Source: Halichondria panicea (lineage: Eukaryota > Porifera > Demospongiae > Suberitida > Halichondriidae). From it: a stretch of DNA of 64,000 nucleotides. The stretch lies in NCBI RefSeq assembly GCF_963675165.1, contig NC_087377.1:11580632-11644631 (forward strand), written 5' to 3'. Position numbers and translations under genes: made by a program. Numbering within the stretch: the stretch's first letter is position 1; the number at the start of each line of letters is the position of its first letter. Of this stretch, positions 2,403-63,839 are shown in pieces. The notes beneath the pieces were generated by a model. The model did no database searches. It worked only from the letters and a program-made list of their open reading frames with translations, and was not told where the DNA came from.

Positions 2403-3994
2403 ATGACATTAGAGATAAAGCTCATTAGAGTTCTTCTGATTTGCTTTCTGGCTGGCTTCAGCACTGGTAAGACTGACTGTTCAATTATAGATTCCCTTAC
2501 ATTGACACTGCATTTTTATAAAGCCCAATATTCAGTGAGTGTGGAGAGACCATGTCCAATGGAAACAGTCACTTTTACCTGCACTGCTCCTGGAGATTCC
2601 TTGAGATGGGAACCGTCAGATGTTACTCGCATCACTATCCTCTCCACCTTGGATCTCAATGTAACACTAATACGATCAGGTTACACTGTAACACTGATTG
2701 CAGCCAATGACACTTCACTAACATCTACTCTGTCAAGGACAGCAGAAAATGGGATCACTGTGTCCTGTAGGGGTATTCGGACCATCATAGGATCTTCAAT
2801 AATTCGTTTGGCTGGTGATTGTCTCAACCCATTGTGTCCGTGCACAAGTTACAATATGTACTGCATAGATTCACCAGGACCACCTTCCACCATAAGACAC
2901 TCCACTTCAAGCAGCTCAGCAGATGGAATCAGCGTGACTGTTGGTTGGGACGCTCCTACTGAGACTGGTGGTAGAGATGACCTCACCTACACAGTGACCA
3001 TCTTACCTCCGGCCCAGCTCTCTGCTACTGTCCTCACATCCACCTCTGTCACTGTGACTGCTCAATACTATGTAGACTATAATGTCAGTGTTATGGCTAC
3101 CAACTGTGCTGGGAACAGTACAACTGCTGAGTACAACTTTAGGAGTGGTGAGTATATTTAATATATATATTTTTGACTGTGTCAACTCTTTCTCAGGTAA
3201 CTGTCCTATGTTGACCAATCCCATGAATGGAGCGTTTGGACAAGTCTCCAGCAGATTACCAGGATCCACGGTAACCATCCAGTGTGATGCTGGGTATGTA
3301 TCTGCTGTTACAATGGTGACATGTGAGGGTACACTGATGTGGAGTCCAGACCCTGAGGCTATTGAGTGTACATTACTAACCACACCTACTCCCACAACTC
3401 GTGAGTTAAGCTCTTGGTTGTAGGAAATTAATACAAAATATCTATGTTAATCATTACACAGCTCCTCCAATAAATTGCACAGCTTCACTACCCTCACCAC
3501 GGAATAGCATTATCAGTGATCATTCAGTACCAGCTATTCCCAGTACACAAGTTACCCTCCAGTGCGACGATGAACTGTTCCCTGAGGGAATAATGACTGC
3601 TACCTGTCTAGCTACAGGAAAGTGGGACGAGGAAATCGTCTGCAGAGGCAAGCGTATTCATTACTTGAATACACTTGTAATAATACTTCTCTCTTGAACA
3701 ACCTATACAGCCGCTCCTTTTAGTTGTGCCAGCCTATCTGATGGGAGTCGATTTGATGCAGCTGTCTCCATCGGCGTTGTTGTCACAGCAGTTGCGTTCA
3801 CAATCATTGGATTGTTGATAGGTCTCTTGATCATGTATTTGTTCATGCGTAAGAAGGCAGTATGCTCCCCAGCAGCTAAAGGACAAGCTAATGTTGGACC
3901 CACTGCACCAGCTGGTCCTGTTTATGAGGAGGTGTCACTCAAAGAAGAGATTGAACTGAATACTAACCAGGCGTATGGACCAGTAGGACAGTGA
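2403..3994 (+). CDS. Receptor A: Ig-FN3-CCP-CCP-TM, type 1, intact
   Basis: Six-exon model: 2403-2466, 2524-2814, 2869-3147, 3197-3400, 3462-3647, 3711-3994, giving 435 aa, every intron in phase 1. Residues 1-21 form a signal peptide (hydrophobic LIRVLLICFLAGFSTG). Ig-like domain about 22-118 with the C...W...C pattern (FTCTAPGDSLRWEP to GITVSC). FN3 about 119-211, ending in the typical Y-x-V-x-V-x-A-x-N strand. Two CCP/Sushi domains at 212-279 and 280-341, each with four cysteines and a Trp before the last. TM helix about 360-387, stop-transfer RKK at 388-390, then a 45-residue tail with Y413 (YEEV) and Y430 (NQAYGPV). The CCP2-TM intron starts with GC rather than GT (GCAAGC). A type I surface receptor is a firm reading from architecture; ligand and signalling are unknown. 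The start is the first ATG of the signal exon. Confidence 0.88.
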
Positions 3995-4290
3995 AACTTC
4001 TGTGTTAATGTGCATGCTCGTGAACGATTTTAAAAACTGTAAACAGCAACATCTGTTCATTAAAAGCCACTACATCTTTTGTATTAAAAAAGAAGCTATA
4101 TTAAACGAGTGGTGCGCTGTGCTAATGCCTCTCGCCATGTTTAGCTTCGCTCAATTAAGGCATTAGAGTGTTGTAATTATGTCATATAACACTCAAATAC
4201 AAAGTATACTAATACCTCTTCTATGATTATAATTATAATACGATTATAGAAGAGGTATTTGTATGCTTTATATACTGTTAAGTTATTATT
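3995..4290. other. 3' flank of A with stem-loop repeat
   Basis: No gene. The segment after the stop (about 4000-4160) is repeated after B-3' at 15301-15480 and probably is 3' UTR. An inverted repeat around 4190-4275 pairs 'AAAGTATACTAATACCTCTTCTA' (split here by length only) with its reverse near 4240-4268. Related copies lie near 15485-15560, and parts recur at 28.4, 38.1 and (inverted) 63.55 kb. Confidence 0.5.
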
Positions 4291-4803
4291 ATGCCTCGGT
4301 GTGTATGTGCAAGCAAGGTATACGGCAGTGTGTGTTTGTATGTGTGCATGTGTGTATGTAGACTGCTACAGCTGCTCAAAGATCAATAAGCTGCAAGTAA
4401 GAGTTTCTATAGGGTTCTAGTAATGTTTTCATGGATTCTGATTCGTGGATTTCCAAAATAATGCTTCATTCTCGAGTTATGCCTAATTTTGGAATGCCAT
4501 TGCAGCCTTTCAGAAGAGTGCATGCGTAGCAAAATGTGTCCATGGAGTGTTGCTACTCAGTAGTTAGCTCTGTACTAGAACGCCTAGCTATTGGTAGCTG
4601 CAAGAGTGAGAAGAGAGCTGCAAGGCTCTATACACTGATGCAGCAGCCATAAACTTTGTACTTTTAGCATCCTCTTTAGCAACAATCATGATCAATCATT
4701 TCGATCCCACTCTAGATGCAAAAATATTCATCATGATAATCATATCACGTGTGTATTAGCAATATCAGCTAGTAGCTTTATGTTGGCACATCCACTGAGG
4801 CAT
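4291..4803 (+). mobile_element. ~0.5-kb interspersed element, copy 1
   Basis: Begins ATGCCTCGGTG and ends with the near reverse complement CACTGAGGCAT. Internal landmarks: a GT-rich tract, 'gactgctacagctgctcaa', 'tctcgagttatgcc', 'agttagctctg'. Other copies are at 15575-15988, 47190-47712 and inverted at about 45958-46287. There is no coding capacity, so it is probably a MITE-like non-autonomous DNA element. Confidence 0.7.
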
Positions 4804-5034
4804 CAGCACCCGCGGTGCTTTCATTATTGTTTGCAATTGTTGACAATGAATCCACACACAGTCAATAGAGGAGCTTAATGGCAACAGAAATCTATTATCT
4901 GATGGCTTGGTAAACTAGAGCACTAATTTAAAAGTGCTAACCCTCAGCTGTCGACATGAATCTATACAAACTTGAAGCGTGTTACACAATAAATGCAGAT
5001 GTATAATGTGTATATGTGTGTACATGCATGGACA

Positions 5035-5881
5035 CAAAATGAGCTGTTTGAGCGAACTAGACACTTTCATAGGCTGCTTTAACTGCTGTACTTTATATAG
5101 TTGAAACTTTTAGGCGATCTTCGAAGGCGACAAACCAATCGATTTTAATCGTTGCTTTATAAATTCACGATCATAATTATAATTATTCCCCATAATGATA
5201 AACTCGTTACGGTAAAAAGTTATTGTATCCGTTTTGCTGCTATGCGATGAAGCTCAACACACAGGGTGAATGCTCTACTGAGTATTGTTATGAAAATTAA
5301 TACTTCCAACAGTATGTTATTTACACAGCTCCTCCAATGAACTGCACGGCTCCACTATCCTCACCAAGGAATGGCACCATCAGTGATCATTCAGTACCTG
5401 CTCTTTCCGATACACAAGTGACATTCCAGTGTGATGATGGACTCTTCCCTGAGGCTGAGGGCATAATGACTGCCACCTGTCTAGCTACAGGAGAGTGGGA
5501 CCAAAACCCAGTAGAGATCCTCTGCAGTGGCAAGTGTAGTCATTACTTAAAGTAATTATGCTTCTATATACCTTGAACCACTTATTACAGCTGTTTCTTA
5601 CAATTGCGCCAGCCTATCTGATAGGAGTCGATTTGATGCAGCTGTCTCCATCAGTGTGGTTGTCATGGCATTCTATTCACCGTCATTGGATTGTTGATGG
5701 GACTCTTTATAATGTATTTGTTCATGCATAAGAAGAATGTGTACTCCCCGTCAGCTAAAGAGCAAGATAATGTATAGGACCCACTACACCAGTTGGTCCT
5801 GTTTATGAGGAGGTGTCATCCATGTAGAGAGGAGATTGAACTGAATACTATAACCAGGCGTATGGACCAGTAGGACTGTGA
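5035..5881 (+). pseudogene. Receptor A': type 1, 5' flank fused to CCP2-TM
   Basis: The conserved type 1 upstream block (5035-5290) runs straight into a CCP2 exon (5329-5529, 201 bp, intact, four Cys), so signal peptide, Ig, FN3 and CCP1 have been deleted. The CCP2 donor is GC-type (GCAAGT), as in A. The TM/tail exon (5591-5881) is broken: bases are lost after the codons for VSISVVVMA, and further short insertions (for example 'ta' giving a stop in the NVGP codons, and extra bases before and inside the EEIELNTNQ region) destroy the frame. The tail is still recognisable at DNA level to its TGA. This is a dead partial copy. Confidence 0.8.
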
Positions 5882-7004: not shown

Positions 7005-7826
7005 ATGACACTAATAGAGATAATAAAGCTCATAGTTTTTTTGATTTGCTTTCTGGCTGGCTTCAGCACTGGTAAGACTGACTATTCAATTATAGATTTC
7101 CTTACATTGCTGCATGTTTCATAAAGCCCAATATTCAGTGAGTGTGGAGAGACCATGTCCAATGGAAACAGTCACTTTCACCTGCACCGCTGCTGGAGAT
7201 TCCTTAAGATGGGAACCGTCAGATGTTACTCGTATTCTTGTCCGCTCTGATCTCAATGTACCAATGACGTTATTTGGCTACACTGTGACACTGATTGCAG
7301 CCAATGACACTACATTAACATCTACTCTGTCAAGAACAGCAGAGAATGGGATCACTGTGTCGTGTGTAGATCCTGAGCCTACTGCGACCCTGATAGGATC
7401 TTCAATAATCCATTTAGCTAGTGAGTAATGTTTTTTTTTCTGTCTATAGGCCATTGTACCATCATATTCGATTTCTTATAGATCCACCAGGACCACCTTC
7501 CATAATAAGACACTCCACTTTAAACACCTCAGCCAATGAAGTCAGTGTATCTGTACAGTGGAACCCTCCTATTGAGAATGGTGGTAGAGATGACCTCACC
7601 TACACAGTGACCATATCACCTCTGGCCCAGCTCTCTACTACTGTCCTCACATCCACCTCTGTCACGGTGACTTCTCAATACAATGTCGACTACATTGTCA
7701 GTGTTGTGGCTACCAACTGTGCTGGGAGTAGTACAACAGCTGAGCATAACTTTAGGATTGGTAAGTATTATTGTTTTGTACACACAGTTTCAACTGATCC
7801 TCTCAGGCAGCTGTCCTGCATTGACC
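7005..7826 (+). pseudogene. Receptor B, 5' part (SP-Ig-FN3-start of CCP1)
   Basis: Exons 7005-7071 (signal peptide, ending FLICFLAGFSTG), 7127-7420 (Ig), 7482-7760 (FN3) and the first 20 bp of the CCP1 exon at 7807-7826 (coding GSCPALT), all phase 1 and all in frame. The exon is then cut by a 6.7-kb insertion and resumes at 14538. The two exon pieces, 20 and 184 bp, sum to 204 bp, exactly the length of the matching exon in A. Before the insertion this was a full type 1 gene close to A. As it stands, a transcript would read a short foreign sequence after CPALT and stop in the element, leaving at most a secreted Ig-FN3 protein. Confidence 0.85.
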
Positions 7827-13850: not shown

Positions 13851-14523
13851 TTAATTCTACCCAACATAATAATATAGTATACTATATATCCTGATAGATT
13901 GTAGACATTTACTATCTTCAAGTAAATGACTGCTAGCCTATACTTACTTGCAGCCATATACACTCACTTTACATTGCTGGTACATTGCGATTAATGGGGA
14001 ATTCCCCAAATTAGTGGCTCTACGCAGCTCTTGGGTATGTGTAGATACGATATGCGATACGTCATTGATAATTGTGGATTTTTTGACAAAACTGGACACA
14101 TTTTGGAACCGCTTAGTCCACTTTATATCGAGCAGCAGCCGCTTTAAGCAGCAGAGTAGGCCGTATATTTTTGCTGGCAATCGGCAAAAATGAAAATATA
14201 TGTGTAAGAATGCCGCAAATCAAACACAAAAATACAAAATAATCAAATTTTACAATACAATACACAAGACAAGCGCTGAAACATTGATCAACAAAAGCAG
14301 TTAGGGAACTTATACAAGCTGGCTGGCTAGCTTCTTGTGGGATTCCAAGGTTAGCTAAGATGTATTTCTTCTTCTTTGTATCGGCAAATCAACTGAAAGT
14401 AGCTCCCTACAAGGGAAAAAGGGAAGCATAGCCTTTGGTCTCATAAGAACACATATAAAATCATACCGTAATATACAGAAAATTACTAACTGATTTACTG
14501 ACATATTTTAATTGGTGTCCAGT
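13851..14523. other. Right flank of the large element, no gene
   Basis: AT-rich and without a supportable gene. Pieces of the terminal motif recur (ACATTGCTGG at about 13972, TTTGCTGGCAATC at about 14170), which may be subterminal repeats. Confidence 0.4.
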
Positions 14524-14537
14524 CATTGCTGGCAATG

Positions 14538-15301
14538 AACCCCATGAATGGAGCCTTTGAACCAGTCGCCAGCAGATTACCAGGATCCACAGTAACCATC
14601 CAGTGTGGCGATGGGTATGTGTCTGCTGTTACAATGGTGACATGTGAGGGTACACTGATGTGGAGTCCAGACCCTGAGGCTATTGAGTGTACATTACTAA
14701 CCACACCTACTCCTACAACTAGTGAGTTAAGCTCTTGGTTGTAGGAAATAAATACAAAATATCTTTACACAGCTCCTTCAATAAACTGCACAGCTTCCCT
14801 ATCCTCACCAAGGAATGGCACCATCAGTGATCATTCAGTACCAGCTATTCCCGGTACACAAGTGACCTTCCAGTGCGACGATGAACTGTTCCCTGAGGGA
14901 ATAATGACTGCTACCTGTCTAGCTACAGGAAAGTGGGACGAGGAGATCGTCTGCAGAGGCAAGTGTATTCATTACTTGAATACACTTGCTTGTAATAATA
15001 CTTTTCTCTTAAACAATCTACAGCTGCTCCTTGTAATTGTGCCAGCCTATCTGATGGGAGTCGATTTGATGCAGCTGTCTCCATCAGCGTGGTTGTCACG
15101 ACAGTTGTGTTCACAATTATTGGATTGTTGATAGGACTCTTGATCATGTATTTGCTCATGAAGGCAGTGTACTCCCCAGCAGCTAAAGAGCAAGCTAATG
15201 TAGGACCCACTATACCAGCTGGTCCTGTTTATGAGGAGGTGTCACCCAAAGAGGAGATTGAACTGAATACTAACCAGGCATATGGACCAGTAGGACTGTG
15301 A
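14538..15301 (+). pseudogene. Receptor B, 3' part (CCP1 end-CCP2-TM-tail)
   Basis: Continuation of the gene at 7005-7826: rest of the CCP1 exon 14538-14721, CCP2 exon 14773-14958, TM/tail exon 15024-15301, phase 1 throughout. CCP cysteines and tryptophans are intact. The CCP2-TM intron is GC-AG (GCAAGT). The TM helix runs from VSISVVVTTVVFTI to LLIMYLLM; two codons of the usual RKK anchor are missing (LLMKAVYSP). The tail keeps YEEV and YGPV. Apart from the insertion I see no lesion in either half. Confidence 0.85.
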
Positions 15302-16430: not shown

Positions 16431-16950
16431 TCAACTGCACTGTACCTGCTGAGCCATGCAACGGTGCTATATTGGACTATGAGAGGTTGAATGAGACAGT
16501 GTTGGAGGGAACAGTGTTGACTTACCAGTGTGAAAATGGATTCTCACTGACTGGACCCAACACCATCACTTGCACTAATGCTGGAGTCTGGAGTACTAAG
16601 CCTAAGGCAATCGTGTGTGTACTTATGACTAAGGTGATGAGCTTTGTAATATTGTATACTATCTACTATCTCATTTCACAGTTTCTACTATCGCTCCCTT
16701 GTTCTCCACTTCTGCAACTGTCGCTGTCAGTGTGGTTATCACTTTCATTGTCACTCTAGTCATTGGATTCCTCACTGGACTCCTAGTGATGCATCTTTTC
16801 TCTCGTAAGAAGGCGGTGTACTTCCCGGCAACTGCAGGACAAGCTAACGCAGCGTCCACTACACCAGTTGGTCCTGTTTATGAGGAGGTGTCACCCAAAG
16901 AGGACATTGAACTCAACACAAACCAGGCGTACGGACCATTAGGACTGTGA
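16431..16950 (+). pseudogene. Receptor D: type 2, only CCP3 and TM left
   Basis: CCP3 exon 16431-16633 and TM/tail exon 16682-16950. No Ig, FN3 or other CCP exon precedes it in 1.1 kb. The CCP3 exon is 203 bp where intact units have 204: one base is missing in the last codons (ACTAAG against ACTGAAG), so the splice phase fails and the TM exon would be read out of frame. The TM exon itself is clean, with the tail YEEVSPKEDIELNTNQAY then GPLGL. A truncated, frameshifted copy. Confidence 0.78.
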
Positions 16951-17483: not shown

Positions 17484-20400
17484 ATGGCCTTGATACTTCA
17501 AAGCCTGTACAAAACGGCAAGTGCAAGTAAGAATACAGTGAGCAGTATTAAAACTTATAATTAAATGCATGCATAATTTTGCAGATTCTGCTTTGATGTC
17601 TAGCGATGGCTTGGCCTGCCCCACTATCTCAGTGGTATTCACCTGCTCTGTTAATAGAAGTTCACTTTTGTGGGAAGTGGATCCTCCACCTGGCGTCGTT
17701 ACTGCACAGTTGACACAAGTGGTGTCTTCTGCTTCTACTGAGCTATTACAAATAGGGGTAGAACGTTTCATGTTTCAAGCAGCTAGAACTGAATTTAGTA
17801 GTAATAGCCTCACCTCCACCCTCACCACAGTCACTGAGGTGTCCTTGCTGAACGGCACCGTTGTGCGTTGTATTGGAGAAGCAACAGAATCCCTAACAAT
17901 CATTGTTGCAGGTGAGACATAATTATAATAGTTTTAATTGAGTACAACTGATCTCTTACAGAGCCACCCACTTCTCCATCAGCTCCAATGGTGGCTTCAC
18001 AACAAAACCAAATCAGTTCCTCTATTATCACTCTGGAGTGGGACCCTCCCTCCTCTACTGGTGGTGTGTCTGTCAGCTACGTCCTCACCATCTCCCCAAC
18101 ACCTCTCTCTGGGTCACCAGTCACCGTGGAGACCACCTCAGCACAGATAATCATCTCCTACAACAGTACACTCCCTACAATATGACCATCAGAGCTGACA
18201 ACTGTGCTGGCTCTAGTACTGATGTGATGGTGACAATTCCTTTTATTGGTTAGATATTACACGTACTAGCTTCACTGTACATTTAATTTAATGCATGCAG
18301 TTACCTGCCCTTCTAACCCACCACCTGCAAACAGAGTTACCATTGTTGGTACTCCTCCACTGCCTGCACTAGTAGGATCAACACTAAGCTTCACTTGCAA
18401 TGGAGAGACGGTATCAGCAACCTGTGAGAGTAATGGACGATGGTCACCTGACCCCGCCACATACGTCTGTCTCTCAGGTAGGTATATTCACTGTCATGAC
18501 TGTATACTATAGTCTTTTCTCAGATCTCACCTGTAGCTCTCCTGCTGCACCATCCAATGGCAGTGTGGATGTCAGTGGTGGGACACCACCCTTCTCACTG
18601 GGTTCAGAAGTCACCTATCACTGTGAGGATGGACTGTTCCCCCTTGATGTGAGGACCAGCACATGCACTGATGTGGGGGGTAGGGGAGAGTGGGTGGAGA
18701 ATCCTGGGAGCTTGGTGTGCAGGGAGAGGCCAGGTGAGGCAGCCAATTCCATTTCTTGTTTTTAAACTTTACTTCTTTATATGCAGCTAATTGCACAGTA
18801 CCCAAGGAGCCCTCCAACGGAACTATAGTGAACTATGAAAGCTAGAGGAGGTTGAATGAGACAGTGTTGGAGGGAACAGTGCTGACTTACCAGTGTGACA
18901 GTGGACTCTCATTGACTGGACCCAACACCATCACTTGCACTAATGCTGGAGTCTGGAGCACTGGGCCTGACACCATCGTGTGTGTGTCACCAACTGAAGG
19001 TAACCCAAGACTCGTAGGCGAACATGGGTTTTAATAGTCTCTTGTTACCCGAGGCCGTGCCGCGGCCAGCGGGTATAGTAGTCCGTTGTCTGTTTGCGTA
19101 TTCTGAGTCTACTCACCTGGATATCATAGTTGTTTTGGAAGGCTTCTTCGCTGACTCTCTTAGTTTTGCTGTGCTGTCCAACTCAGTCATATACTACTGC
19201 ATTTATTGTACATGTATATCACTCCTCTGGTTTCTATATCTTGTCTTTAGTGTTCTAGTCTGTCTGTCTGTTTACCTGTGTATTTTGAGTCCGCTCACCT
19301 GGCTGCCATATAATTATAGCGATTCTTTTGCAGCATGGATAGCCTCAACACAAAAAGTTCAGTTCAGTTATTGGAGTGGTTGCTTTGAATGAAAGCGAGC
19401 AAATCTTACCCTGCACGCGTTTAGGTATACAATGTATACGTATATACATGAGCCTAAAAAAAGCATTAATTTGAGGCGCGCCAGTATGATTGTACTATAT
19501 ATACTACACAGCCATGTGCATGGAGCTTCTTGGGAAGGCTGGCTCTGCTGTGATCAGTGGCGTGTCTATAAGGCGTGAGCATGCACCCCCCCCCTGGCCT
19601 ACCAGACAACTATGAAAATAATCTAGCTATCAGCACTGGCTGTGCAGCTCTATCGAGGCAAACTATATTGGCTCAAGTCATGGCCACACCCAAATTGACA
19701 ATTGATGCATGCACAAATGAGCATTGGCAATAATTATTATTATTTAATCATGACACTGCAATTTGTTTCCCCTTGTCTAATTAACGATGGGGCATAAAAT
19801 TTCAGCTACATGCATGCTGTGCACGCGGCCTTGAGCACCCACCTACTTCAATGCCCGTAACAGTCAAGGACTTAGTGCTTGTCAGATGCATGTGTTAGCT
19901 TAGTTACAATCAGTATATATAATTATACGTAACCACACTCATGTTGTATAATATACAATGTCACATGCTCCAGGGTTTGCAGCGACATTGAAGTTACCAC
20001 ACACTATTTTTCATCCTCAAAATTTAGGAAAATCACTCGTGCAAAATAAAAGCAAATATTTTTCTAGGAGGGGACCCCCCCGCTCTACCAACGGCTAATT
20101 TGGCGCTCGGATGCAAGCGTCCTATATTTAAGCTAATCACCCCCTTAATATTTGAAAACCATATTTTCACCCGCTTGGGCAAATTCCCCTGATATGCATA
20201 TATATAACATTCCGGACTTCTTTGCTGACTCTGCTGTGCATGATCCTATAGCTATATATATTATTATAGTCCCATGCATGCATGCATAAGTCTGACCATG
20301 CACCACCATCTACAGTGGTGTCTAGTGGCACCACAGCCGTTTTCAAATTAATTATAAATTATTATTCTGGTTGTCTTCTGCATGACTATATATATATAGA

Positions 20401-20728
20401 CCTTAATTCATTGTCCTCTGTGAATTGCTGCTATAGGTTTCCATGATACATTAAAATTAATTCTGCGGTTTTCCCAGAGCCTGTCACATAATTATAATAT
20501 TGGTATAACAACACAGTACTCTGGTTGTGATATACTAGTGCTCTATAGTTGTTATCCCTATGCCAATCCTCCACAGCCCCGACTGTGACAGCTGCTGCCA
20601 CACTATCAACTGGTGTAACTGTTGCCATCAGTGTTATTATTACTTTCGTTGCGTCTACTCTAGCTCCTTTCACCCAAAGAGGAGATTGAACTGAACACTA
20701 ACCAGGCGTATGGACCATTAGGACGGTG
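17484..20728 (+). pseudogene. Receptor E: type 2 with several lesions
   Basis: Exons: signal 17484-17526, Ig 17585-17911, FN3 17962-18248, CCP1 18301-18477, CCP2 18524-18733, CCP3 18787-18999, TM 20577-20728 after a 1.6-kb intron. Three lesions: five extra bases in FN3 (tacaac-agtac-actccc) shift the frame; nine extra bases in CCP3 bring an in-frame TAG (NYES-stop); and the TM exon lacks the part coding for the end of the helix, the anchor and YEEV, so it jumps from ASTLAPF to a shifted tail. The Ig, CCP1 and CCP2 exons are intact. The TM exon start (TAAATLSTGVTVAIS) and long last intron are shared with J, its closest relative here. Confidence 0.8.
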
Positions 20729-25761: not shown

Positions 25762-27768
25762 ATGATGAGAGCAATGCAACTGTTTACAGCAAATATCCTG
25801 CAGTTGTTTGCTTTTACTGCAGGTAAGAACTATAGCTACACATTATAGACGTCTGTCTTCACTAGCCTAAGTTTACATGTTTTACAGCCACACTGACAAC
25901 ATCTCCCTCCACTGTGGCTTGTCCTGATGACACTGTCACTTTCACCTGCACTCTGCCTGGTAGTGTCATACGATGGACGGTGTTTGCTGCAATGAGTCCA
26001 TCACAAGGCCGGATAGAGTTGTTCAGAATCACTTTGATTCCCAACACCAATATTAATGAGACACGAGGTGATCCAGCATTCCGTGGTATTCTTAATGACT
26101 CCAGTGGAGGATTGCTCACTGCCACTCTCACCTCACTGTCTGAGGCCTCAACTGTGGAGGGTATTATGGTGGAGTGTGTAGGAGAGAACTCACGAAAAGG
26201 TCCTCTCACCATCACTGTGGCTGGTGAGTTCTTTTCATAAATAAATTTCTTGATCAATTTGATACACCCATACAGATCCACCCTCCCCTCCACTGAACCC
26301 AACCGTATCTTCCACTCTAAATCAACCCAGCTCCTCTAATATCACTCTGGAGTGGAACTCCCCCTCCTCTACTGGTGGTGTGTCTGTCAGCTATGTCCTC
26401 ACCATCTCCCCAACACCTCTCTCCAAGTCACCAGTCATCGTGGGGACCACCTCTGGACAGATCACCGTCTCTTACAACACTCCTTACAATATGACCATCA
26501 GAGCTGTTAACTGTGCTGGAATGAATGAAACTTCAATTGTGAATCTAAGTACAATAATTATGTCTTGCATACAGCACATGCACGTATTACTTCTCTTTAT
26601 ACAGTTGTGTGCCCCACACCGTTTACTGCTGCTGGGGTGACTATCACCAACACACCTCCTGTCACTATTGGTGGATCCATGCTCTCCTTCACTTGTAGTG
26701 GAGACAATGAAGTGAGAACCTCAACCTGTGGCAGTAGCGGGTGGTCTCCTGACCCTGGGAGGACCTATGACTGCAGAACAGGTATATATCCTACGTAGTG
26801 GATTAACTGTGTAATGTTGACCTCATTATATCCCCAAGTTACTTGTGGCTCTCCTGCCACACCATCCAGAGGTAATGTGGACGTCAATGGTGGGACACCA
26901 CCCTTCTTAATAGGCTCACAGGTAATCTACCGCTGTGACGAGGGACTGTTCCCTCCTGATGTGAGGACCAGTACATGCACTGATGTGGGGGGTAGGGGAG
27001 AGTGGGTGGAGAATCCTGGGAGCTTGGTGTGCAGGGAGAGGCCAGGTGAAATGTATATATATATAGCTGTTTAGAGGCAATGTTTTTTAATTCCTTCGAA
27101 AAAGCTCATTTTGTAATTTCTGTGACGTACAGTTGTATTAGCTTTAATACGTACACCGCCTTTGTTCCACATTTTCAATGGCAAGTTATTGGATGCTCGT
27201 ATGGAGCTGATTGAGATCAGTACAAACATATTATTTTCTGACCGTCCATATAGCCAACTGCTCTCTTCCTGCTGAGCCCTGTAACGGTGCTATAGTGGAT
27301 TATGAGAGGTTGAATAAGACAGTGTTGGAGGGAACAGTGCTGACTTACCAGTGTGACAATGGACTCTCACTGACTAGACATAACAAAATCACTTGCACTA
27401 ATGCTGGAGAGTGGAGCACTGAGCCTGAGGCAATCATGTGTGTAGTTAGTACTGAAGGTCAGTATAATTTTTTACTATCCCAAAATACAGTCATACTATA
27501 TCTCACAGTTTCTACCTTGTTCTCCACTGCAACTGTCGCTATCAGTGTGGTCATCACTTTCATTGTCACTCTAGTCATTGGATTCCTCACTGGACTCCTA
27601 GTGATGCATATTTTCTCTCGTAAGAAGGCAGTATACTTCCCGGCAACTGAAAGACAAGCTAACGTAGGACCCACTGCACAGCCAGCTGGTCCTGTTTATG
27701 AGGAGGTGTCACCCAAAGAAGAGATTGAACTCAACACAAACCAGGCATATGGACCGTTAGGACTGTGA
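25762..27768 (+). CDS. Receptor F: Ig-FN3-CCP-CCP-CCP-TM, type 2, intact
   Basis: Seven exons: 25762-25822, 25888-26223, 26276-26548, 26605-26781, 26839-27045, 27254-27457, 27509-27768; 505 aa; all introns phase 1. Signal peptide 1-20 (a second ATG lies one codon on). Ig-like 21-132 (TVTFTCTLPGSVIRWTV to IMVECVG). FN3 133-223. CCP domains 224-282, 283-351 and 352-419, each with four Cys and the Trp. TM helix from about VAISVVITFIVTLVIGF to LLVMHIF, anchor SRKK, tail with Y483 (YEEV) and Y500 (NQAYGPL). At the CCP2 exon the usual acceptor (TTAG) is mutated, but the AAG eight bases on keeps phase. Likely a type I surface receptor whose tail can bind SH2 or PTB proteins once phosphorylated; the partner is unknown. 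Confidence 0.88.
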
Positions 27769-42300: not shown

Positions 42301-43420
42301 CATACACACCGGACATTTTGGTAGGTGTTTTTAGATGGCCAAATTTAAAACCGTCAAATTAAAAGTTTTCCGGTGGACCCAACGCATTGCAGCAGTAGCC
42401 ACACGCCTAAGATGCCAAATGCATATAGGTGCCAACTTTCCAGGATTTAACACTCTTATCCCGAAAAGAAACTTCTATTCACCTAGATATTCCAGATTTT
42501 CAAGGTTACTGCTTCTAATTAGCTGTGTTACTATCCAATAAAACTTATCAAGCCTGGAAAAGTTAAAAAAAACTACTGCTTGAATCTTTTAACAATGAAC
42601 AGAAACAGCTTTACACAAGAGAACTTATAGCTTAAGCATCCAATAAGTGGGCGTGAAGAGAGCTGAGCAGTATGTGATGCTGCTGGGACGGCATCCCCAC
42701 AACAATTCATGAGATTGTAGGAAAACATGGAAGAATTATAGATATGAATTGTTGCACTGCACTGAAAATCAGAGGAATTATTGTGAATTTCTCCTTGGGC
42801 CAGTCGCTCAGGGGGGGCTATATAACACCCTTATACGTTTTGAAACTTGGCTGCATTAGGAAGTTGGCACCTATTATATGCAAATGGCTCATCCGCCAAA
42901 TATTCTAGTTAGCTATAATTATAGTATTACTAGATTAATGTTTTGTGAGCAAGGATCAATTTCAAATATAAAAAATTAAAACCTAAATTAGTACTGGTAA
43001 TTACACACAGAACGCAGATTGCAAGAGGTAAATTAATTTTTCTGCTGATTTGGTTCACCACAAAATATTCTAGTAACAATACAACCCCGTGTACTGATAC
43101 TCTGGGTGTGATATACAACTGCCTCAGGCTTCTATCCCAATATTTATTGCTAATCCTTCACAGCTGCCACCCTATCAACTGGTGTAACTATTGCCATCAG
43201 TGTTACTACTACTTTCGTTGCCATTACTATCCTTGGATTTCTCACTGGACTCCTAGTGATGTATTCGTTTATGCGTAAGAAGGCAGTGTACTACACAAGA
43301 AAAACAGCATTATCTGTTGTAGAACCCACTAAACCAGTTGGTCCTGTTTATGAGGAGGTGTCACCCAAAGAGGAGATTGAACTGAACACTAACCAGGCGT
43401 ATGGACCACTAGGACTGTGA
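39368..43420 (+). CDS. Receptor J: Ig-FN3-CCP-CCP-CCP-TM, type 2, intact
   Basis: Seven exons: 39368-39419, 39481-39801, 39858-40133, 40194-40376, 40430-40645, 40771-40974, 43164-43420; 502 aa; all phase 1. Signal peptide 1-17 (VIISIQLFSLAA). Ig 18-124, FN3 125-216, CCPs 217-277, 278-349 and 350-417 with all cysteines and Trp. TM helix in about GVTIAISVTTTFVAITILGF to LLVMYSF, anchor MRKK. The tail differs from the others before the first motif (TRKTALSVVEPTKP in place of the usual ATEGQANVGPTAPA) but keeps Y480 (YEEV) and Y497 (NQAYGPL). The last intron is 2.2 kb and holds repeats; E has the same layout. The CCP2 acceptor next to the exon has changed (CCAA), but the upstream TTAG is in frame. 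Confidence 0.85.
41728..41787. repeat. Foldback hairpin in last intron of J
   Basis: Arms TTAGTCTCGAATACCC and their reverse GGGTATTCGAGACTAA close over a centre at AAGCTT; stem of about 28 bp with a two-base bulge. Confidence 0.9.
42411..42893. mobile_element. Possible inverted-repeat element in J intron
   Basis: CCAAATGCATATAGGTGCC (about 42415) and its near reverse complement GGCACCTATTATATGCA (about 42864) flank about 430 bp, with the repeat extending about 35 bp. A short ORF between (42335-42541) shows no family. Confidence 0.35.
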
Positions 43421-50607: not shown

Positions 50608-53443
50608 AGGCCTCTCTGGTATCCAACAGCAGTGTTGCATGTCCTGGAGAGGCAGTTCTGTTCACATGCTCTGTGCCTGGTGATATGTCTAGTGTACTGA
50701 GATGGCAAGTCAATCCTCCAGCAGAGTCTGGGTTAATGACTATGCAAAGTACACTCTTCCTTGGTTCTCTAGTCGGTCGAAGGGACACATTTGGATTTGG
50801 AGTGATCATGTTTGAGGCTGTTCTTGTGAGCAGTGACGGAGTAAACCTGACTTCTACTCTCATCAACCTCAGTAAAGTGTCTGTACTGGATGGAAGCATT
50901 GTCACCTGTGTACTTTAAATGGTATTACAGTTGTTGAACTACAGCAGACAATATTGGTTGCTGGTGAGGAGCTATCTTTACTATTATTCTTGGGTTTAGT
51001 GGAGAGGTTGGATTACCTGTGTGTGACATCAATAAGAGAGTGTGCTAGATTAAATCTAAAAACTCACTGTCTGAGGCCTCAATTGTAGAAGGTACTATGG
51101 TGTTGTGTGAGGGAGCAAGCTCACAAGAGGGTCCTCTCACTATCACTGTGGCTGGTGAGTGGCTGATGGAGTGCATACATATGCATGCATGTACACATGC
51201 ACTGTCAGTTTTATCAATACACTCATGCCAGATTCACCCTCCCCTCCACTGAATCCAAGGGTGTCCTCCTCAGCCCAAAACTAACTCAGCTCCTCTATTA
51301 TCACTCTGGACTGGGACCCTCCCTCCTCTACTGGTGGTGTGTCTGTCAGCTATGTCGTCACCATCTCCCCAATACCTCTCTCCGGGTCACCAGTCACCAT
51401 GGATACCACCTCAGCACAGATAACTGTCTCCTACAACACACCCTACAATGTGACCATCAAAGCTGTCAACTGTGCTGGAATGAGTCAAGAGGGTTCTATT
51501 GTTGATTTGAGTAAGCTATTTCATGGAATGTCGTCATTGGTTGTATTTGGTTGTAGACTCATTCCAGTGTAACAGTCATGACATACAAAGTATTCCTCCT
51601 ACTTAATGCAGTTGTGTGCCCCATACCGTCTGCTGCTGCTGGTGTTACCATCATCAACACATAATTATGATACAGATATTTTCTGACCGTCCATATAATT
51701 ATAGTCAACTGCACAGTACCTGTTGAGCCCTGCAACGGTGCTATAGTGGACCATGAGAGGTTGAACGAGACAGTGTTGGAGGGAACAGTGCTGACTTACC
51801 AGTGTGACAATGGACTCTCATTGACTGGACCCAACACCATTACTTGCACTAATGCTGGAGTCTGGAGCACTGAGCCTGAGGCAATCATGTGTGTACTTAT
51901 GACTGAAGGTGATATATATATAGATGAGCTTTGGAATTGTGTGTACACTGTATGGTCTCCACTAAACCCAAGAATATCCTCCACTCTAAATCATCCCAGT
52001 TCCTCTAATATCACTCTGGACTGGGAGGCTCCCTCCTCTGTGTGTCTATCAGGTATGTCCTCATCATCTCCCCAACATCTCTCTCTGGGTCACCAGTCAC
52101 TGTGGACACCACCTTAGCACAAATCACTGTCTCCTACAACGTTCTATACAATGTGACTATCAGAGCTGACAACTGTGCTGGAATGAATGAAACTAGAATT
52201 GTGAATCTGAGTAAGCTCATTAAACGTAATGTACATTGTATATCTATGCTCCTTCTCTTACAGTTGTGTGCCCCACACCGTCTACTGCTGCTGGTGTTAC
52301 CATCATCAACACACCTCCGGTCACTATTAGTGGATCCATGCTCACCTTCACTTGCAGTGGAGACAATGAAGTGAGAACCTCAACCTGTGGCAGTAATGGA
52401 TAGTCTCCTGACCCTGGGACCTTTGACTGCAGCAGTCCGATTACAGGTATATAATCTTAATCACATAAATTTGTACATGCTTCTTTTCATTGGTGTCCTC
52501 ATTAGATCCCCCAGTCACCTGTGGCTCTCCTGATGCACCATCTAGAGGTAGTGTGGACATCAGTGGTGGGACACCACCCTTCTCACTGGGTTCAGAGGTC
52601 ACCTATCGCTGTGACGAGGGACTGTTCCCCTTTGATGTGAGGACCAGCACATGCACTGATGTGGGGAGTAGGGGAGAGTGGGTGGAGAATCCTGGGAGCT
52701 TGATGTGCAGGGAGAGACCAGGTGAAATGTAGTTGATCAGAACAAAATTTTGCTGCGAAAAAATAATTTCTGTCTGCATGATCTGTCTACAATTGTATTC
52801 AATGGCAGGTCATATAATATCAGGTGCTCATGCTGAGCTGATGAGATACAAACATCTATCATGTGCTATAGTCATAGTATAATCATATGATATTTTCTGA
52901 CCGTCCATATAATTATAGTCAACTGCACTGTACCTGTTGAGCCCTGCAACGGTGCTATAGTGGACCATGAGAGGTTGAACGAGACAGTGTTGGAGGGAAC
53001 AGTGCTGACTTACCAGTGTGACAATGGACTCTCACTGACTGAACCCAACAACACCACGTGCACTAATGCTGGAGTCTGGAGCACTGAGCCTGAGGCAATC
53101 AAGTGTGTACTTAGGACTGAAGGTGATGAGCTTTGTAATTGTTTGCTATCTAATACCGGTATCTCATCTCACAGTTTCTACTGTCGCTCCTTTGTTATCC
53201 ACTTCTGCAATTGTCACTATCAGTGTGGTCATCACTTTCATTGTCACTCTAGTCATTGGATTCCTCACTGGACTGCTGGTAATGCATCTTTTCTCTCGTA
53301 AGAAGGCGGTGTACTTCCCGGCAACTGAAGGACAAGCAAATGTAGGACCCACTGCACCAGCTGTTTTTGTTTATGAAGAGGTGTCACCCAAAGAGGAGAT
53401 TGAACTTAACACTAACCAGGCGTATGGACCATTAGGACTGTGA
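50608..53443 (+). pseudogene. Receptor K: rearranged chimera of several units
   Basis: Order of pieces: G-type Ig exon 50608-50963 (356 bp, TAA after the second Cys); last third of an F/I-type Ig exon 51063-51154; FN3 51232-51510 (in-frame TAA near its start); CCP1 stump about 51612-51664; CCP3 51705-51908 (intact); second FN3 about 51950-52211 with a deletion; CCP1 52264-52446 (TGG to TAG in the conserved Trp); CCP2 52506-52721, CCP3 52919-53122 and TM/tail 53175-53443, all intact with YEEV and YGPL. Two partial gene copies have been joined by unequal crossing-over. The 3' module of CCP2-CCP3-TM could still be used if a promoter and signal exon were spliced to it. Confidence 0.82.
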
Positions 53444-54593: not shown

Positions 54594-56950
54594 TTACAGT
54601 CCAACTGGTCCATATGCTTGGTTAGTATTCAGTTCAATCTCCTCTTTGCATGACACTTCTTCATAAACAGGACCAGCTGGTACAGTGGGTCTTACGTTAG
54701 CTTGTCCATCAGCTGATGGGGAGTATACTGCCTTCTTATGAGAGCAAAGGTACATCACTAGGACTCCAGTGAGGAATCCAATGATCATAAACAGAACTGC
54801 CATAACAACCACACTAACAGAAACAGCAATTCCAAGGTCAGTACCAGTGAATAGAGTTTGGGATTGATCTGTATATAGGTGGTTCAATATATATACATGC
54901 AAGTAACGTAAACACTAACCTTTGCAGACCGTTTCCCCTGGATTCTTGTCCCACTCTCCTGTAGCTAGACAGGTAGCAGTCATTATCCCCTTAGGGAACA
55001 GTCCATCGTCACACTGAAAGGTCACTTGTGTACCAGGAATAGCTAGTACTGAATGATCACTTATGGTACCATTCTGTGGTGAGGATAGTAGAGCTGTGCA
55101 CCTCATTGGAAGAGCTGGAATTATCGTGAAAAGTAAGCATATAATTATGCACTTACAAGCAAATTATTATTACGGCTCACGAGTTGTGGGGGAAGGTTGG
55201 GTAAGTTGGCTACACTCAGTAGTCTCAGGATCTGGACTCCACATCAGTGTACTCTCACATGTAACCACTGAAACAGCAGATACATACCCAGCGTCACACT
55301 GGATGGTTACTATGGATTTTGGCAATCTGCTGGACACCGGTTTCAAAGGCTCCGTTTGTAGAGTTGGTCAACATAGGACAGCCGCCTGAGAGGGAATCAG
55401 ATATTAATGTGACTGTATGTGTATTCAATAATATTGATACTTGGCAGCTCTTACCAATCAAAAAGTTATACTCAGCAGTCGTACTGTTTCCAGCACAGTT
55501 GGTAGCTACAACACTGACAGTGTAGTCCAGATTGTATTGAGCAGTCACAGTGACGGAGACAGTAGCAGAGAGCTGGGCCGGAGGTGAGATGATCACTGTG
55601 TAGGTTCGATCACCAGTCTCAGTAGGAGGGTTCCAACCAACAGTTACACTAACTTTATCGGCTGAGCTACTCAGAATTGAGTCACTGAATCCATTTGGTG
55701 GTGTGGTAGCTGTAGAAAAGTATTATGCTTTGCAAAACTTGCTTTGCATGCATAATTATAATCTCACTTGCTGTCAGTATAGTTAGTTCTTCCCTCAACT
55801 CAGGCTGCAATAAAGGAAGACAACTAATAGTGATTCCCTCCACCGTAGGGAAACTCAAACTGGAGGTGATCGCTGAACTAGTAGAATTAAACATGATAAA
55901 TGTAACGGTGTACTGATCTCGTTGGAATGGAAGTTCTGTTATGCTATCAAGTATCAAGTCTCTTGTTGGATCAGGTACGTCCCATTCCAGCAAAGCCCTA
56001 GGCACTGTACAAGTGAGTGAGATCACATCTCCAGCACAGGGGGTCTCAGTGTAGTCACGAGTCAGACCACCTAGCACCAAGGGTACACCTTTAGGAAGGA
56101 GATCTAGAATCAGATTTACAAACATGGACACTATAGACTCTAGTATAGGCAGGATACCCAACTTTATTTTCTCTCAATTTCAAGCTACCCTATAACTATA
56201 ATTATTCTCAGAAATCTGGGGAATTTGGATAACAACGTAAATGATCCAGTGCATGACGTTTTATTTCTTCAATCTCACGTATCTATACTCATAGTACATA
56301 ATTATACAGTATCTACAGTTCAGGCCCTACTGTTAGCAGTGAAGATGACCATCTATAGCCTTGGCAAAGCCGAAGAAAAATAGCTCATAGAGTGAAGTGC
56401 TACAACAAACCTACATTTACTAATAAGTCAATTCTTTTGTACAGCTATAGCTCTGCTAGCCTCGATTCAAGGCCGCTTTAGAAGCGCTTCTAAAGCGGCC
56501 TTGAATCGAGGCTATAGCTCTGCATGTGTACATGCATGCACACTGAATTTATAGCTACTTTGTCTGTATTAATTGTTTGAAGAAATGTTCAGTTTTACGG
56601 AACATGTTACAAGATAAGTTTGCACATGCGTAAACAGTCAGTAGCCCTTTCTTCACTCGAGGCTTGTGGAGGAGGCTAATTGCATCTCTGATAAGCTAAA
56701 AGAAAAATCTTCCCTCTGACTCCCTTACTTAATTCATCTTCCCCAATAGCCATTAATCCTACGGTCATATTCATTTGCAAAATAATGATTTCATAAGGTG
56801 AAACATGCAACACGATTGTTCATTTGAGGGTACTTTTAATTTTGATCTCTCTGATCTGTTCTTACAGTGAATATTAATACCTATACACTACAGTGACTTA
56901 CCAACCACTAAAACCCAAATAGTTCTAGATCTAGCCTCAGCTTGTGTCAT
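54594..56950 (-). pseudogene. Receptor H': type 1, twin of H with other lesions
   Basis: Minus-strand exons: signal 56950-56902, Ig 56088-55768, FN3 55709-55455, CCP1 55385-55181, CCP2 55114-54920, TM/tail 54868-54594. The TM exon is intact (YEEVSCKEEIELNTNQAY then GPVGL). The CCP1 exon has 205 bp for 204: one extra T (ACCGGTTTC for ACCGGTCC) shifts the frame after GAFE. The start ATG of H is ACG here, though an ATG three codons on is in frame. FN3 lacks 12 bp in frame. Skipping CCP1 would restore an open frame. Confidence 0.78.
56457..56514. mobile_element. Perfect foldback micro-element with empty-site partner
   Basis: 29-bp arms, TAGCCTCGATTCAAGGCCGC inward and the exact reverse outward. 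It is absent at the paralogous site near 34671, and TATAGCTCTGC (11 bp) stands on both sides here but once there, so it inserted after the segmental duplication and left a target duplication. Confidence 0.9.
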
Positions 56951-57142: not shown

Positions 57143-59354
57143 ATGCAAGTAAAAGCAGTTACTATTATTCAGTTGTTTGCTGTTGCTGCAGGTAGGACTT
57201 ATATAGGTATAATTGTGTGTTCATGCACTAGAACCTTGACTATAGCTATCCTTATTTTTGTATGCAGCCACACTGACATCCACCTCCACTGTGTCCTGTC
57301 CTGATGACACTGTCACCTTCACCTGCACTCTGCCTGGTAGTGTCATACGATGGACGGTCACTTCTCCACAACTACAAGTATTCACCATAACTTTAGACAC
57401 CAGCAACATTGATGTCACACGAGGTAATCCAGCATTCCGTGGTGTTCTCACTGACTCCAGTGGACCTCTCACTGCCACTCTCACCTCACTGTCTGAGGCC
57501 TCTATTGTAGAGGGTACTATGGTGTTGTGTGAGGGAGAGAACTCAAGAGAGGGTCCTCTTACCATCACTGTGGCTGGTGAGTTGACTGCTCTTTGTTTTG
57601 TAACATTATATAAAAGTGTGGAACAAGTGATTAATATACCCACATGCAGATCCACCCTTACGTCCACTCAATTCAAGAGTATCCTCTACTCTAAACCAAC
57701 TCAGCTCCTCTATTATCACTCTGGACTGGGATCCTCCCTCCTCTACTGGTGGTGTGTCAGTCAGCTATGTCGTCACCATCTCCCCAACAACTCTCTCCGA
57801 GTCACCAGGCATCGTGGAGACCACCTCAGCACAGATAACTGTTTCCTACAACACTCCCTACAATATGACCATCAGAGCTGTCAACTGTGTTGGAATGAGT
57901 CAAGAGAGTTTAATTGAGGATCTGAGTAAGCCATTTCATGGTCATAATATTATACAACAATCAGATATACTTTTAATTAATGCAGTTGTGTGCCCCACAC
58001 CGTCTACTGCTGTTGGTGTTACTATCACCAACACACCTCCTGTCACTATTGGTGGATCCATGCTCACCTTCACTTGTAGTAGAGATAGTGAAGTGAGAAC
58101 CTCAACCTGTGGCAGTAGCGGGTGGTCTCCTGACCCTGGGACCTTTGACTGCAGCAGTCCGAAAACAGGTATCAACATGGGCAATTAACTCTCTAAAAGG
58201 AATGTTGATCTCATGCATTAGATCTCCAAGTCACCTGTGGTTCTCCTGCTGCACCGTCTAGAGGCAGTTTGGACATCAATGGTGGGACACCACCCTTCTC
58301 ACTGGGTTCACAGGTCATCTATCGTTGTAATGAGGGACTGTTCCCTCCTGATGTGAGGACCAGCACATGCACTGGTGTGGGGGATAGGGGAGAGTGGGTG
58401 GACACTCCTGGGAGCTTGGTGTGCAGAGAGAGGCCAGGTGAAATGTAGTTGGGCCAAGCCAACTTCTAGGCAGGCCGGTAAAAAAATCTGGAGAGTGGGA
58501 GTTTTTAGACTCTTAAATTGTTAGGCTTCCTACACCACACTGAGTTTGTGGTAACCTTATGGAGTGGGTGGTTGTGGGTGTTTTTCTAGCAAAAAGTGAC
58601 TCGCTTGCATTCGTGGAGCGTGTAATTAAGTTGGCTTGGCCTTGTTCAGAGGGTTTTTGATTTCCTTCATTCTTTAATTTCTGTGAATTGTATAAGCTTA
58701 CGTACACTGCTTTCGTTCCACACTTTCTTAGTATTCAATGGCAGGTTATTGGATGCTCGTGTTGAGCTGATTGAGATACAAACATGTATTCATAAAGTCA
58801 TTTTCTGACCATCCCTATAGTGAACTGTTCTCTTCCTGCTGAGCCCTGCAATGGTGCTATAGTGGACTATGAGAGGTTGAATGAGACAGTGTTGGAGGGA
58901 ACAGTGCTGACCTACCAGTGTGACAATGGATTCTCACTGACTGCATGGACCCAACACCATCACTTGCACTAATGCTGGAGTCTGGAGCACTGAGCCAGAG
59001 GAAATCATGTGTGTACTTATGACTGAAGGTGATGGATGAGCTTTGTAATTGTTTGCTTATCTACTACCGGTATTCCATCTCGTAGTTTCTACTGTTGCTC
59101 CTTTGTTCTCCACTTCTGCAACTGTCGCTATCAGTGTGGTCATCACTTTCATTGTCACTCTAGTCATTGGATTCCTCACTGGACTCCTAGTGATGCATGT
59201 TTTCTCTCGTAAGAAGGCAGTATACTCCCCAGCAACTGAAGGACAAGCTAACGTAGGACCCCCTGCACCAGCTGTTCCTGTTTATGAAGAGGTGTCACCC
59301 AAAGAAGAGATTAAACTCAACACAAACCAGGCGTATGGACCATTAGGACTGTAA
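57143..59354 (+). pseudogene. Receptor I': type 2, twin of I, CCP3 frameshift
   Basis: Exons: signal 57143-57191, Ig 57268-57576, FN3 57650-57925, CCP1 57986-58168, CCP2 58222-58437 (intact, unlike in I), CCP3 58821-59028, TM/tail 59086-59354. CCP3 has 208 bp for 204: four extra bases (ACTG-CATG-GACCC) shift the frame. Everything else is open and phase 1. Skipping CCP3 gives a 433-aa Ig-FN3-CCP-CCP-TM product of the same length as I without CCP2. The tail reads EEVSPKEEIKLNTNQAYGPL, with Glu to Lys as in I. Confidence 0.75.
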
Positions 59355-60044: not shown

Positions 60045-60084
60045 TTTCAGTGGTGTCTCAACCCATACACTATCACTAGAGTTA

Positions 60085-62511: not shown

Positions 62512-62516
62512 GTTCA

Positions 62517-62732
62517 TATACTGTATATAGCCGGTAATTTTCGGGGGACAAAATATTCGTGGTTTTCGTGGTTGAAGCTCTGACCATGAATATTTTACCC
62601 ACGAATGAAGCGACCTTGACTACCTTTACCTGCAGTGCAATCAGCAACGACGAAAATATTATCCATGAAATGTCTAAATATTGCTGAACCACGAATACTT
62701 TGTCCCCCAAATATTACCCGCTATACGGTATA
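62517..62732. mobile_element. MITE, paralogue of 29850-30060
   Basis: Same inverted ends and the same place relative to the FN3 donor; the flanking intron sequence (to about 63040) also matches 30061-30340. Confidence 0.8.
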
Positions 62733-63784
62733 TGATTGTCTTAGTTGCGCTCGTTACTACCGTACTCTATCGAGATTACGCCCACGTCCGAAATTACGAC
62801 CCACTGCTTCTTTTGAGTGAAAGTTCCTGTATAGGCTAATTTGCTTCAAGAATACGCCCACAAAGAATTGATGCAAACTTGTCAGCGAGCAGTTTATAGT
62901 TGACAAGAAAGGTTTAGAAGTTTCTTGTGTAAGCTGGTTACTGAAGATAGCTACGTAGATAGTTAGATCCAATGATTATTACTCCTATTCGCAAGTATAA
63001 GAGACAAAGACAATCTTCTCTGAATCTCTGTAGACGACTTTTCTTCAGCTACTATAATTATTGCAAGCACTTGGCATGCCCCAGAAAATAGGCGTAATTT
63101 CGAAACAAAACTACCTTTTTCGAAATTAAGCCTACCTACCTGTAGCTGCTGTGTAGCATGCAATTAGGGTGGGCGTAATCTTGGTAGAGTACGGTAATAA
63201 TTTTAACCACTAACCACCGCTTATCAATGCAAACGGTCACGAGACCGCTGCACAAGTAGCACTATAGCTATTTGTTAGCTACAAAGAACATTTCGCTGAA
63301 AGCTGCATGCATGTACTGCCAGAAGCAAGCCCTTATGAACTCTGACCTCATTTCAGATACACCCCTTTTCGAATTTTTGAGCGGAAATGCAAAATACTTA
63401 TTTAAACTTCTACATTGTAGATCTATAATTATAGCTACATGCTAGTTCTGTCCTCCTTGAAGAGATCATTCATCAAGCCATATCAGATATAGACTTCTGT
63501 GCTGCTCTTCTATATTAAAGTGTGTATGCATTCAACAATAATTACATGATTATACAAAGCAAACTACCTCTTCTAATACTTTTTGAGCGAAAGCAAATCA
63601 TGGTGAGAGGCATTAGCCCAGCACAGTTTGCAACACTCGTTATTCTGGCATTTTGTTTGTTTTATAGATGTGGTTTTCTTTAACATTCTGATGTGGTTTT
63701 TCTGACTTCCTCAATAGAGGGTGTGTTTCATATCATAGGTAATCAATAAACTTGCTGTTGTACCAGCTAGCTATAGCTCCTGCA
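62733..63784. other. Intergenic
   Basis: To about 63190 a diverged copy of the FN3-CCP1 intron of G. At about 63548-63640 an inverted copy of the 'gcctctc(g/a)ccatg' repeat seen at 4.1, 15.4, 28.4 and 38.1 kb. From 63670 the sequence matches the 5' flank of J (39250-39367). No gene. Confidence 0.5.
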
Positions 63785-63839
63785 ATGCAAGTACACACAG
63801 TTCTTATTATCATCATCCAGCTGTTTTCTCTTGCTGCAG
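63785..63839 (+). CDS. First exon of the next receptor (partial)
   Basis: 55-bp signal-peptide exon: ATG, then a hydrophobic VLIIIIQLFSLAA ending in phase 1 at a GTAAGTT donor. It is close to the first exon of J, with a matching 5' flank. The Ig exon should begin shortly after the end of the window. Confidence 0.75.

Follow-up and report, generated by a model that had tools for sequence, protein, structure and literature searches.

The window, a 64-kb stretch of DNA (positions 11,580,632-11,644,631 of C1, an 18-Mb contig in a genome of 131.5 Mb in 39 contigs), holds a tandem family of receptor-like genes that share one short tail; all results given here come from this one assembly. Thirteen tail exons were found in the window, by 13 matches to the motif NQAYGP and 14 matches to a model of the transmembrane (TM) exon, one exon being split by a frameshift. 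Ten of the 13 tails are preceded by Ig-like and FN3 exons and by two or more CCP exons, together with a TM exon or its remnant. Two units (U8 and U12) lie on the minus strand and the rest on the plus strand, so that the tandem receptor family on both strands proposed by an earlier sequence-only reading is borne out, and it extends far beyond the window. Two gene plans occur, Ig-FN3-CCP-CCP-TM and Ig-FN3-CCP-CCP-CCP-TM (hereafter the 2-CCP and 3-CCP classes), with one exon per domain. Introns are of phase 1 in the units read and modelled, and exons can therefore be exchanged without breaking the frame. When nine window units were spliced conceptually, three gave complete models (U1, U6 and U10), U8 was truncated in its TM exon and five gave no model, in keeping with the ectodomain decay that had been described from the letters; laxer splice rules yielded models from the same four units. 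By a rough rule, each of the three complete models begins with a candidate signal-peptide exon.

The complete 2-CCP unit, U1 (2403..3994, +), is composed of a signal candidate (about 2403-2466), an Ig-like exon (2524-2814), an FN3 exon (about 2878-3147), two CCP exons (3197-3400 and 3462-3647) and a TM and tail exon (3711-3994), and was recognized by domain matches, conceptual splicing, phase-1 introns and Pfam matches to Sushi (E 2.7e-10) and fn3 (E 0.0089). U6 (25774..27768, +), a complete 3-CCP unit identified by domain matches, conceptual splicing and Sushi (E 1.1e-11), has a signal candidate followed by Ig-like (25888-26223), FN3 (26276-26548), three CCP (26605-26781, 26839-27045 and 27254-27457) and TM and tail (27509-27768) exons. 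Its conserved end (27691..27768, +) can serve as an example: PVYEEVSPKEEIELNTNQAYGPLGL, then stop, which includes the 22 codons PVYEEV...NQAYGP. The third complete unit, U10 (39368..43420, +; Sushi 6.7e-12, fn3 1.3e-6), is of the 3-CCP plan, and its TM exon, of the type called T below, lies beyond a last intron of 2.2 kb.

At the genome scale, the receptor cluster spans several megabases and includes well over a hundred related gene copies. One search with a tail sequence returned 295 first-look candidates; scoring covered 150 of them, and every one proved to be a match, 149 on C1 between 11.25 and 14.93 Mb and one on contig C7; a second tail query gave 310 candidates, and again all of the 150 scored matched. 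A single-copy housekeeping gene, named beforehand as the finding that would count against such a family, is thus not what this genome holds. Written in degenerate codons, NQAYGP has 217 genome matches and its reversed-pattern control none, so the matches are not due to chance; among the 100 NQAYGP places listed, which reach 12.37 Mb, four are extra copies within a motif-repeating tail. VYEEV has 298 matches versus 48 for its control. The union of places from the two tail queries and the NQAYGP list comes to at least 185 tails, family counts of this kind being lower bounds for large families, and intact genes are fewer than tails. Inspection by eye shows the C7 member to have the same kinds of exon (Ig, FN3, CCP and tail). 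Domain exons were also located elsewhere, Ig-like ones on C32 and at C1:10.42 Mb and FN3 ones on C6 and between 9.87 and 10.42 Mb of C1.

The proposition that every FN3 copy adjoins a listed tail was rejected: of 110 FN3 places (a subset of the 150 listed), 73 are followed within 5 kb by a listed tail and the other 37 are not. Five of these 37 (11312266, 11341850, 11344442, 11693875 and 12338322) have VYEEV about 1.2-1.3 kb downstream, among VYEEV places listed to 12.34 Mb; because of these matches, and because the NQAYGP places are listed only to 12.37 Mb, diverged tails are likely. VYEEV at C1:11310973, 11340557 and 11343288 (-), downstream of FN3 copies without exact NQAYGP, might represent a diverged tail class. 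Twenty-two Ig places, picked from 120 listed as seemingly far from tails, split into 5 and 17, which gives no rate. In a census of 330 kb (fetched tiles and the window, joined into 25 segments), 78 TM-model matches comprised 26 Ig-FN3-CCP3-TM and 17 Ig-FN3-CCP2-TM units, the remainder being fragments or compound plans; the tiles were chosen for holding tails, so that tail-less units are under-represented. Conceptual splicing with phase-1 introns succeeded, with rough splice choices, in 38 of 49 full-architecture units, and NQAY is kept in 35 of these 38 and absent from three. The pattern CGASYAF, which we take to be the silicatein-type active-site motif (Cys to Ser), has three matches in the genome and none for its control, all on Peptidase_C1 matches at C2:656-668 kb. 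The DNA is very probably of demosponge origin by these active sites, in agreement with the sponge source suggested earlier; one separate cathepsin locus has the Cys active site and is uninformative on silicatein.

The near-invariant part of the tail is a peptide of 22 residues, PVYEEV...NQAYGP, which ends three residues before the C-terminus. In our own sorting by motif, 52 full TM exons fall into three TM and juxtamembrane types, V (22), T (9) and A (the remaining 21), all of which carry this peptide; the set also required YEE, YEV or YEG, so that counts made on it lean upward. Between types, the proportions of nonsynonymous (pN) and synonymous (pS) differences in the 22-codon stretch are 0.075 and 0.313, with a ratio of nonsynonymous to synonymous rates (dN/dS) of 0.19, and pS is 0.53 over the first 25 TM codons. 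Introns and 3′ untranslated regions are 0.72 and 0.74 identical between types, random sequence giving 0.72. Because these flanks are near the random baseline while the stretch has a dN/dS of 0.19, the peptide is under purifying selection and is not merely young. Recent duplication as the sole cause of the conserved tail was rejected, since the flanks and the TM have diverged between types and the 22 residues have not. The "one invariant tail" of the sequence-only reading therefore applies to this stretch, whereas the sequence around it differs among the three types. The two tyrosines are 17 residues apart in 49 of the 52 exons, and the juxtamembrane part, despite its differences in sequence, has a length of 22 residues in 45 of the 52. 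The TM stretch contains no charged residue in any of these exons, so that pairing with a charged adaptor is not supported. No relatives of the tail outside this genome were found among the viral contig and genome contig collections searched. In some tails the NQAYGPL unit is doubled or tripled. Locus L015 (C1:11480175-11480309, -) has three tandem copies and tails near C1:12.042 and 12.273 Mb have two, and the number of tyrosine motifs thus varies.

In the ectodomain, CCP exons match factor H (E 1.5e-15), and the three complete models score 40.9-46.1 bits against a Sushi profile cut-off of 20.7. The fn3 profile is matched at E <= 0.01 by nine of ten window exons (best 4.6e-8), U10 alone among the three whole models passing the curated cut-off. 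A Cys-Trp-Cys core is present in the Ig-like exons, C20, W29, L80 and C96 being invariant in all 11 of the window. The census contains 63 Ig-like matches, of which 50 (at least 240 bases, no stop) form six lineages at 50% identity, with a median pairwise identity of 32%. The largest lineage (19 exons) has two variable parts, one from the Trp to LTSTL (mean entropy 1.11) and one beyond the last Cys (1.17), to which all variation in length is confined; the frameworks have mean entropies of 0.43 and 0.41. The second lineage (12) is similar (first variable part 1.15 versus 0.38 and 0.44), and the third (9) has less contrast (0.71 versus 0.54 and 0.35). Between close pairs, whole-exon dN/dS is 0.82-0.89 for Ig and 0.42-0.62 for the other exons; within the Ig exon, the first variable part has 0.87 (bootstrap 0.74-1.05), the part beyond the last Cys 0.67, and the frameworks 0.69 and 0.49.

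The 3-CCP class exchanges its Ig exons freely. Among its 300 pairs (25 units), TM exons are at least 90% identical in 94, of which 50 have Ig exons with no more than 50% identity; conversely, Ig exons are at least 80% identical in 44 pairs, 17 of which have TM exons at most 80% identical. Among the 78 pairs of the 2-CCP class (13 units), neither kind of mismatch is seen, a result that depends on the thresholds, and Ig and TM identity mostly vary together. The earlier claim that ectodomain exons recombine freely thus applies to the 3-CCP class but not to the 2-CCP class as a whole. One 2-CCP unit, with its tail at 12326467, has an Ig exon 45-47% identical and CCP and TM exons 85-90% identical to those of several other units, and identities of FN3 and CCP1 correlate in this class at only 0.26. 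A seam is visible in one 3-CCP pair: when the two units are compared in 60-base windows from about the start of CCP2 to past the stop codon, in introns as well as exons, 17 of the 20 windows reach 93-100% identity and the remaining three 80-87%, and upstream the identity is 37-65% in the Ig region and 38 to 93%, mostly 60-77%, from FN3 to CCP1. In IQ-TREE topology tests on 26 3-CCP and 13 2-CCP units, the Ig data of both classes reject the TM tree and the TM data the Ig tree; the only combinations that the approximately unbiased (AU) test did not reject belong to the 2-CCP class, namely Ig data with the FN3 tree and CCP2 data with the TM tree. Whole blocks are duplicated as well, a block of about 7 kb with U8 (minus) and U9 (plus) at 31111..38077 having a copy at 52908-59898 with U12 (minus) and U13 (plus), at 89-96% identity by self-comparison.

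Downstream of U1, a 2-CCP fragment with a broken CCP exon and a TM and tail exon (5340..5868, +) retains VYEEV at 5801 and NQAYGP at 5852, and a truncated unit (7126..7741, +), detected by orphan domain matches and by reading the sequence, has Ig-like and FN3 exons with no CCP or tail match after them. Domain matches also delimit a CCP-CCP-TM and tail chain without an Ig or FN3 match (14523..15301, +), a CCP-TM and tail fragment (16436..16950, +), and a unit with Ig, FN3 and CCP exons (17605..20726, +) whose TM and tail are remote and degraded (20664-20726; NQAYGP at 20700). In the 3-CCP class, no complete model was obtained for U7 (29154..31675, +), in which splice sites or frame were not found for FN3, CCP2 and CCP3, or for U9 (35285..37536, +), in which the CCP2 exon is weak. 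U11 (50628..53443, +) is rearranged, its Ig, FN3 and CCP pieces being doubled by domain matches, and in U13 (57143..59354, +), according to domain matches and the splice test, CCP3 consists of two separate matches. Both minus-strand units are of the 2-CCP plan: U8 (32798..34280, -) has a frameshifted TM exon by domain matches and splice models, and in U12 (54594..56070, -) the CCP1 boundary was not found by domain matches and the splice test. Between receptor units, a gap holds a protein kinase open frame (9932-10870, -; Pfam Pkinase 5.1e-22). An inverted repeat at 8066-8217, with abutting 76-nt arms that are 91% complementary, is like a small hairpin mobile element, and two long open frames (11216-12217 and 12648-13265, +) without a Pfam match are perhaps parts of mobile elements. 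A satellite at 46692-47101, with a 61-base unit in 5.6 copies at 46692-47037, has inverted repeats on either side (46137-46290 and 47187-47342).

These genes probably (at roughly 0.6) encode variable type I recognition receptors of a demosponge that feed one phosphotyrosine output. The signal peptide and TM would place the varied head outside the cell, where the distal Ig-like domain would meet varied ligands, presumably non-self, whether microbial or allogeneic, with FN3 and the two or three CCPs acting as a stalk or as co-binding modules. Ligand-driven clustering could then allow a kinase to phosphorylate the two fixed tyrosines, in YEEV and NQAY, 17 residues apart, and the phosphorylated tail would recruit SH2, perhaps PTB, proteins, a single common output serving many specificities. 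YEEV is close to pYEEI, the preference of the Src SH2 domain, NQAY is an NxxY motif and hence a possible PTB site, and SH2 domains have 71 exon-level matches. The repertoire expands through block duplication, and recombination remixes it, joining unrelated Ig exons to near-identical 3′ halves in the 3-CCP class. Judged from its sequence, the cluster is a strong candidate for friend/foe discrimination in sponges. That this interval is the long-sought polymorphic sponge recognition complex, with unrelated Ig lineages swapped onto a common stalk and a phosphotyrosine tail outside the known activation and inhibitory motifs, and an independent animal variable-receptor immunity, is unlikely.

Several observations weigh against the receptor reading. 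The Ig assignment is weak by sequence: the profile cut-off is not reached, Pfam Ig_2 is found in two of 11 window exons (best E 0.016), the U6 exon has no Pfam match, none of the three complete models (U1, U6 and U10) has an Ig match, and the top PDB profile matches, to antibody V domains, are weak (E 0.05 and worse). Positive selection was tested for and not found, dN/dS being significantly above 1 in no region tested. In the tail, dN/dS of the conserved stretch is uneven (0.08 within A, 0.21 within V and 0.59 within T, and 0.30-0.32 when T is compared with either of the other types), and its pS of 0.31 is below that of the TM (0.53), so that its sameness may be due partly to codon constraint or to gene conversion over short tracts. 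Of the TM matches covering the place of YEE[VMIL], 62 of 64 retain it; NQAY is present in all 65 that reach it and both tyrosine motifs in all 53 of the full-length subset. These counts are biased upward because resemblance to the tail, or the NQAYGP pattern itself, decided which tiles were taken; elsewhere there are tails with YEEV that lack an exact NQAYGP, and many copies are broken. The tail also departs from the classical motifs of immune receptors. The immunoreceptor tyrosine-based activation motif (ITAM) has the consensus YxxL/I-x(6-12)-YxxL/I and the inhibitory motif (ITIM) [I/V/L/S]xYxx[I/V/L]; the tail reads YxxV-x13-YxxL/V, and residue -2 is Pro in 90% of cases before the first tyrosine and Gln in 52 of 52 before the second. 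Because spacing and residues differ from these consensus sequences, the tail belongs to neither group, yet it would act like that of a tyrosine-motif immune receptor.

The nature of the ligand would divide the receptor reading into two narrower versions. A repertoire for recognizing microbes or symbionts can be proposed tentatively: the copy number and the broken copies would resemble those of pathogen-facing families, and, in the published portions available, a gene with FnIII and sushi domains changed after microbial signals in Aplysina, as did Ig-domain genes in Aplysina and Dysidea (PMC6208332), although these differentially expressed genes are annotated by domain only and are like this family by domain description. 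An allorecognition locus, whose receptors would read self and non-self between conspecific sponges, is rather doubtful. About two hundred copies are many for such a locus, and classical work on sponge allorecognition centres on the aggregation factor. However, allografts are rejected by sponges (PMC9505182), the Botryllus candidates are described in part as Ig, sushi and tyrosine-motif receptors in a polymorphic locus (PMC12065747), and a partial account of Hydractinia gives 40 Alr and Alr-like genes on one chromosome (PMC11876637).

Other explanations question the output of the tail or the number of genes. The products could be adhesion or scavenger receptors, the tail being an endocytic sorting signal in which phosphorylation has no part, but this is improbable. 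YEEV and YGPL/V both fit Yxx-phi, and sorting signals may tolerate the repetition of NQAYGPL seen in some tails; strict tyrosine spacing and the acidic YEEV core, like a Src-type SH2 ligand, point instead to signalling. It is more improbable still that the copy number has been inflated by the assembly, with the different haplotypes of a polymorphic region set one after another. Near-identical blocks do occur on C1, where tails at 11.8037, 12.0379 and 13.2305 Mb have equal scores and NQAYGP spacings are 4198/4369 bases around 11.8037 Mb and 4234/4369 around 12.0379 Mb. However, the copies have diverged to widely different degrees, identity in the 15 long matches between fetched segments runs from 84 to 99%, with 14 of them below 97%, and inflation could lower the count, not remove the family. 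The blocks at C1 about 11.804-11.812 and 12.038-12.047 Mb and the tail at 13.230 Mb represent either recent segmental duplication or serial haplotypes.

No description of such a receptor cluster, nor of one named for sponge tissue rejection, was found in the open-licence literature searched. With the cluster mapped, and its tail, variable stretches and pattern of shuffling defined, the question of sponge recognition becomes testable; if the receptor reading is true, sponges would join cnidarians and tunicates as animals in which variable recognition systems are made of Ig receptors with tyrosine tails. Complement regulators such as factor H and CD55 are similar through the CCP exons, but to our knowledge they have no Ig/FN3 head or tyrosine tail. 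The SRCR superfamily of Amphimedon is likewise described, in the portion available, as a massive, partly tandem sponge expansion whose proteins may carry sushi and FN3 domains (PMC10855680); unlike it, the three complete models have no SRCR match in Pfam. Sponge Ig-TIR receptors share an Ig ectodomain with a signalling tail (PMC8242945, PMC6208332, PMC12909245), but in these partial accounts they have a TIR tail and few genes (six in Dysidea avara), whereas the tail here is short and tyrosine-based and the three complete models have no TIR match. The Alr complex of Hydractinia, from the parts of the reports available, has about 40 clustered Ig receptor genes, potential pseudogenes included (PMC11876637, PMC11999971), and tyrosine motifs are reported for its candidates (PMC12065747); its Ig domains are of V- and I-set, no CCP appears in those parts, and copy number here is several-fold higher. 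In the fuhc locus of Botryllus, a partial description gives 53 FcoR loci with a V-type Ig, sushi, two C2 Ig domains, a TM and ITIM/hemITAM motifs (PMC12065747). Like FcoR/FF, the sponge genes would be type I receptors with an Ig and sushi ectodomain and a tyrosine-motif tail, in tens of clustered loci; unlike FcoR, whose order is V Ig-sushi-C2 Ig-C2 Ig-TM, whose tails differ in ITIM/hemITAM and which is paired with FF, they have one Ig-like domain, FN3 and two or three CCPs before the TM, and a shared tail. Compared by such descriptions, FcoR/FF and Alr are the closest in design, differing in domain order and tail.

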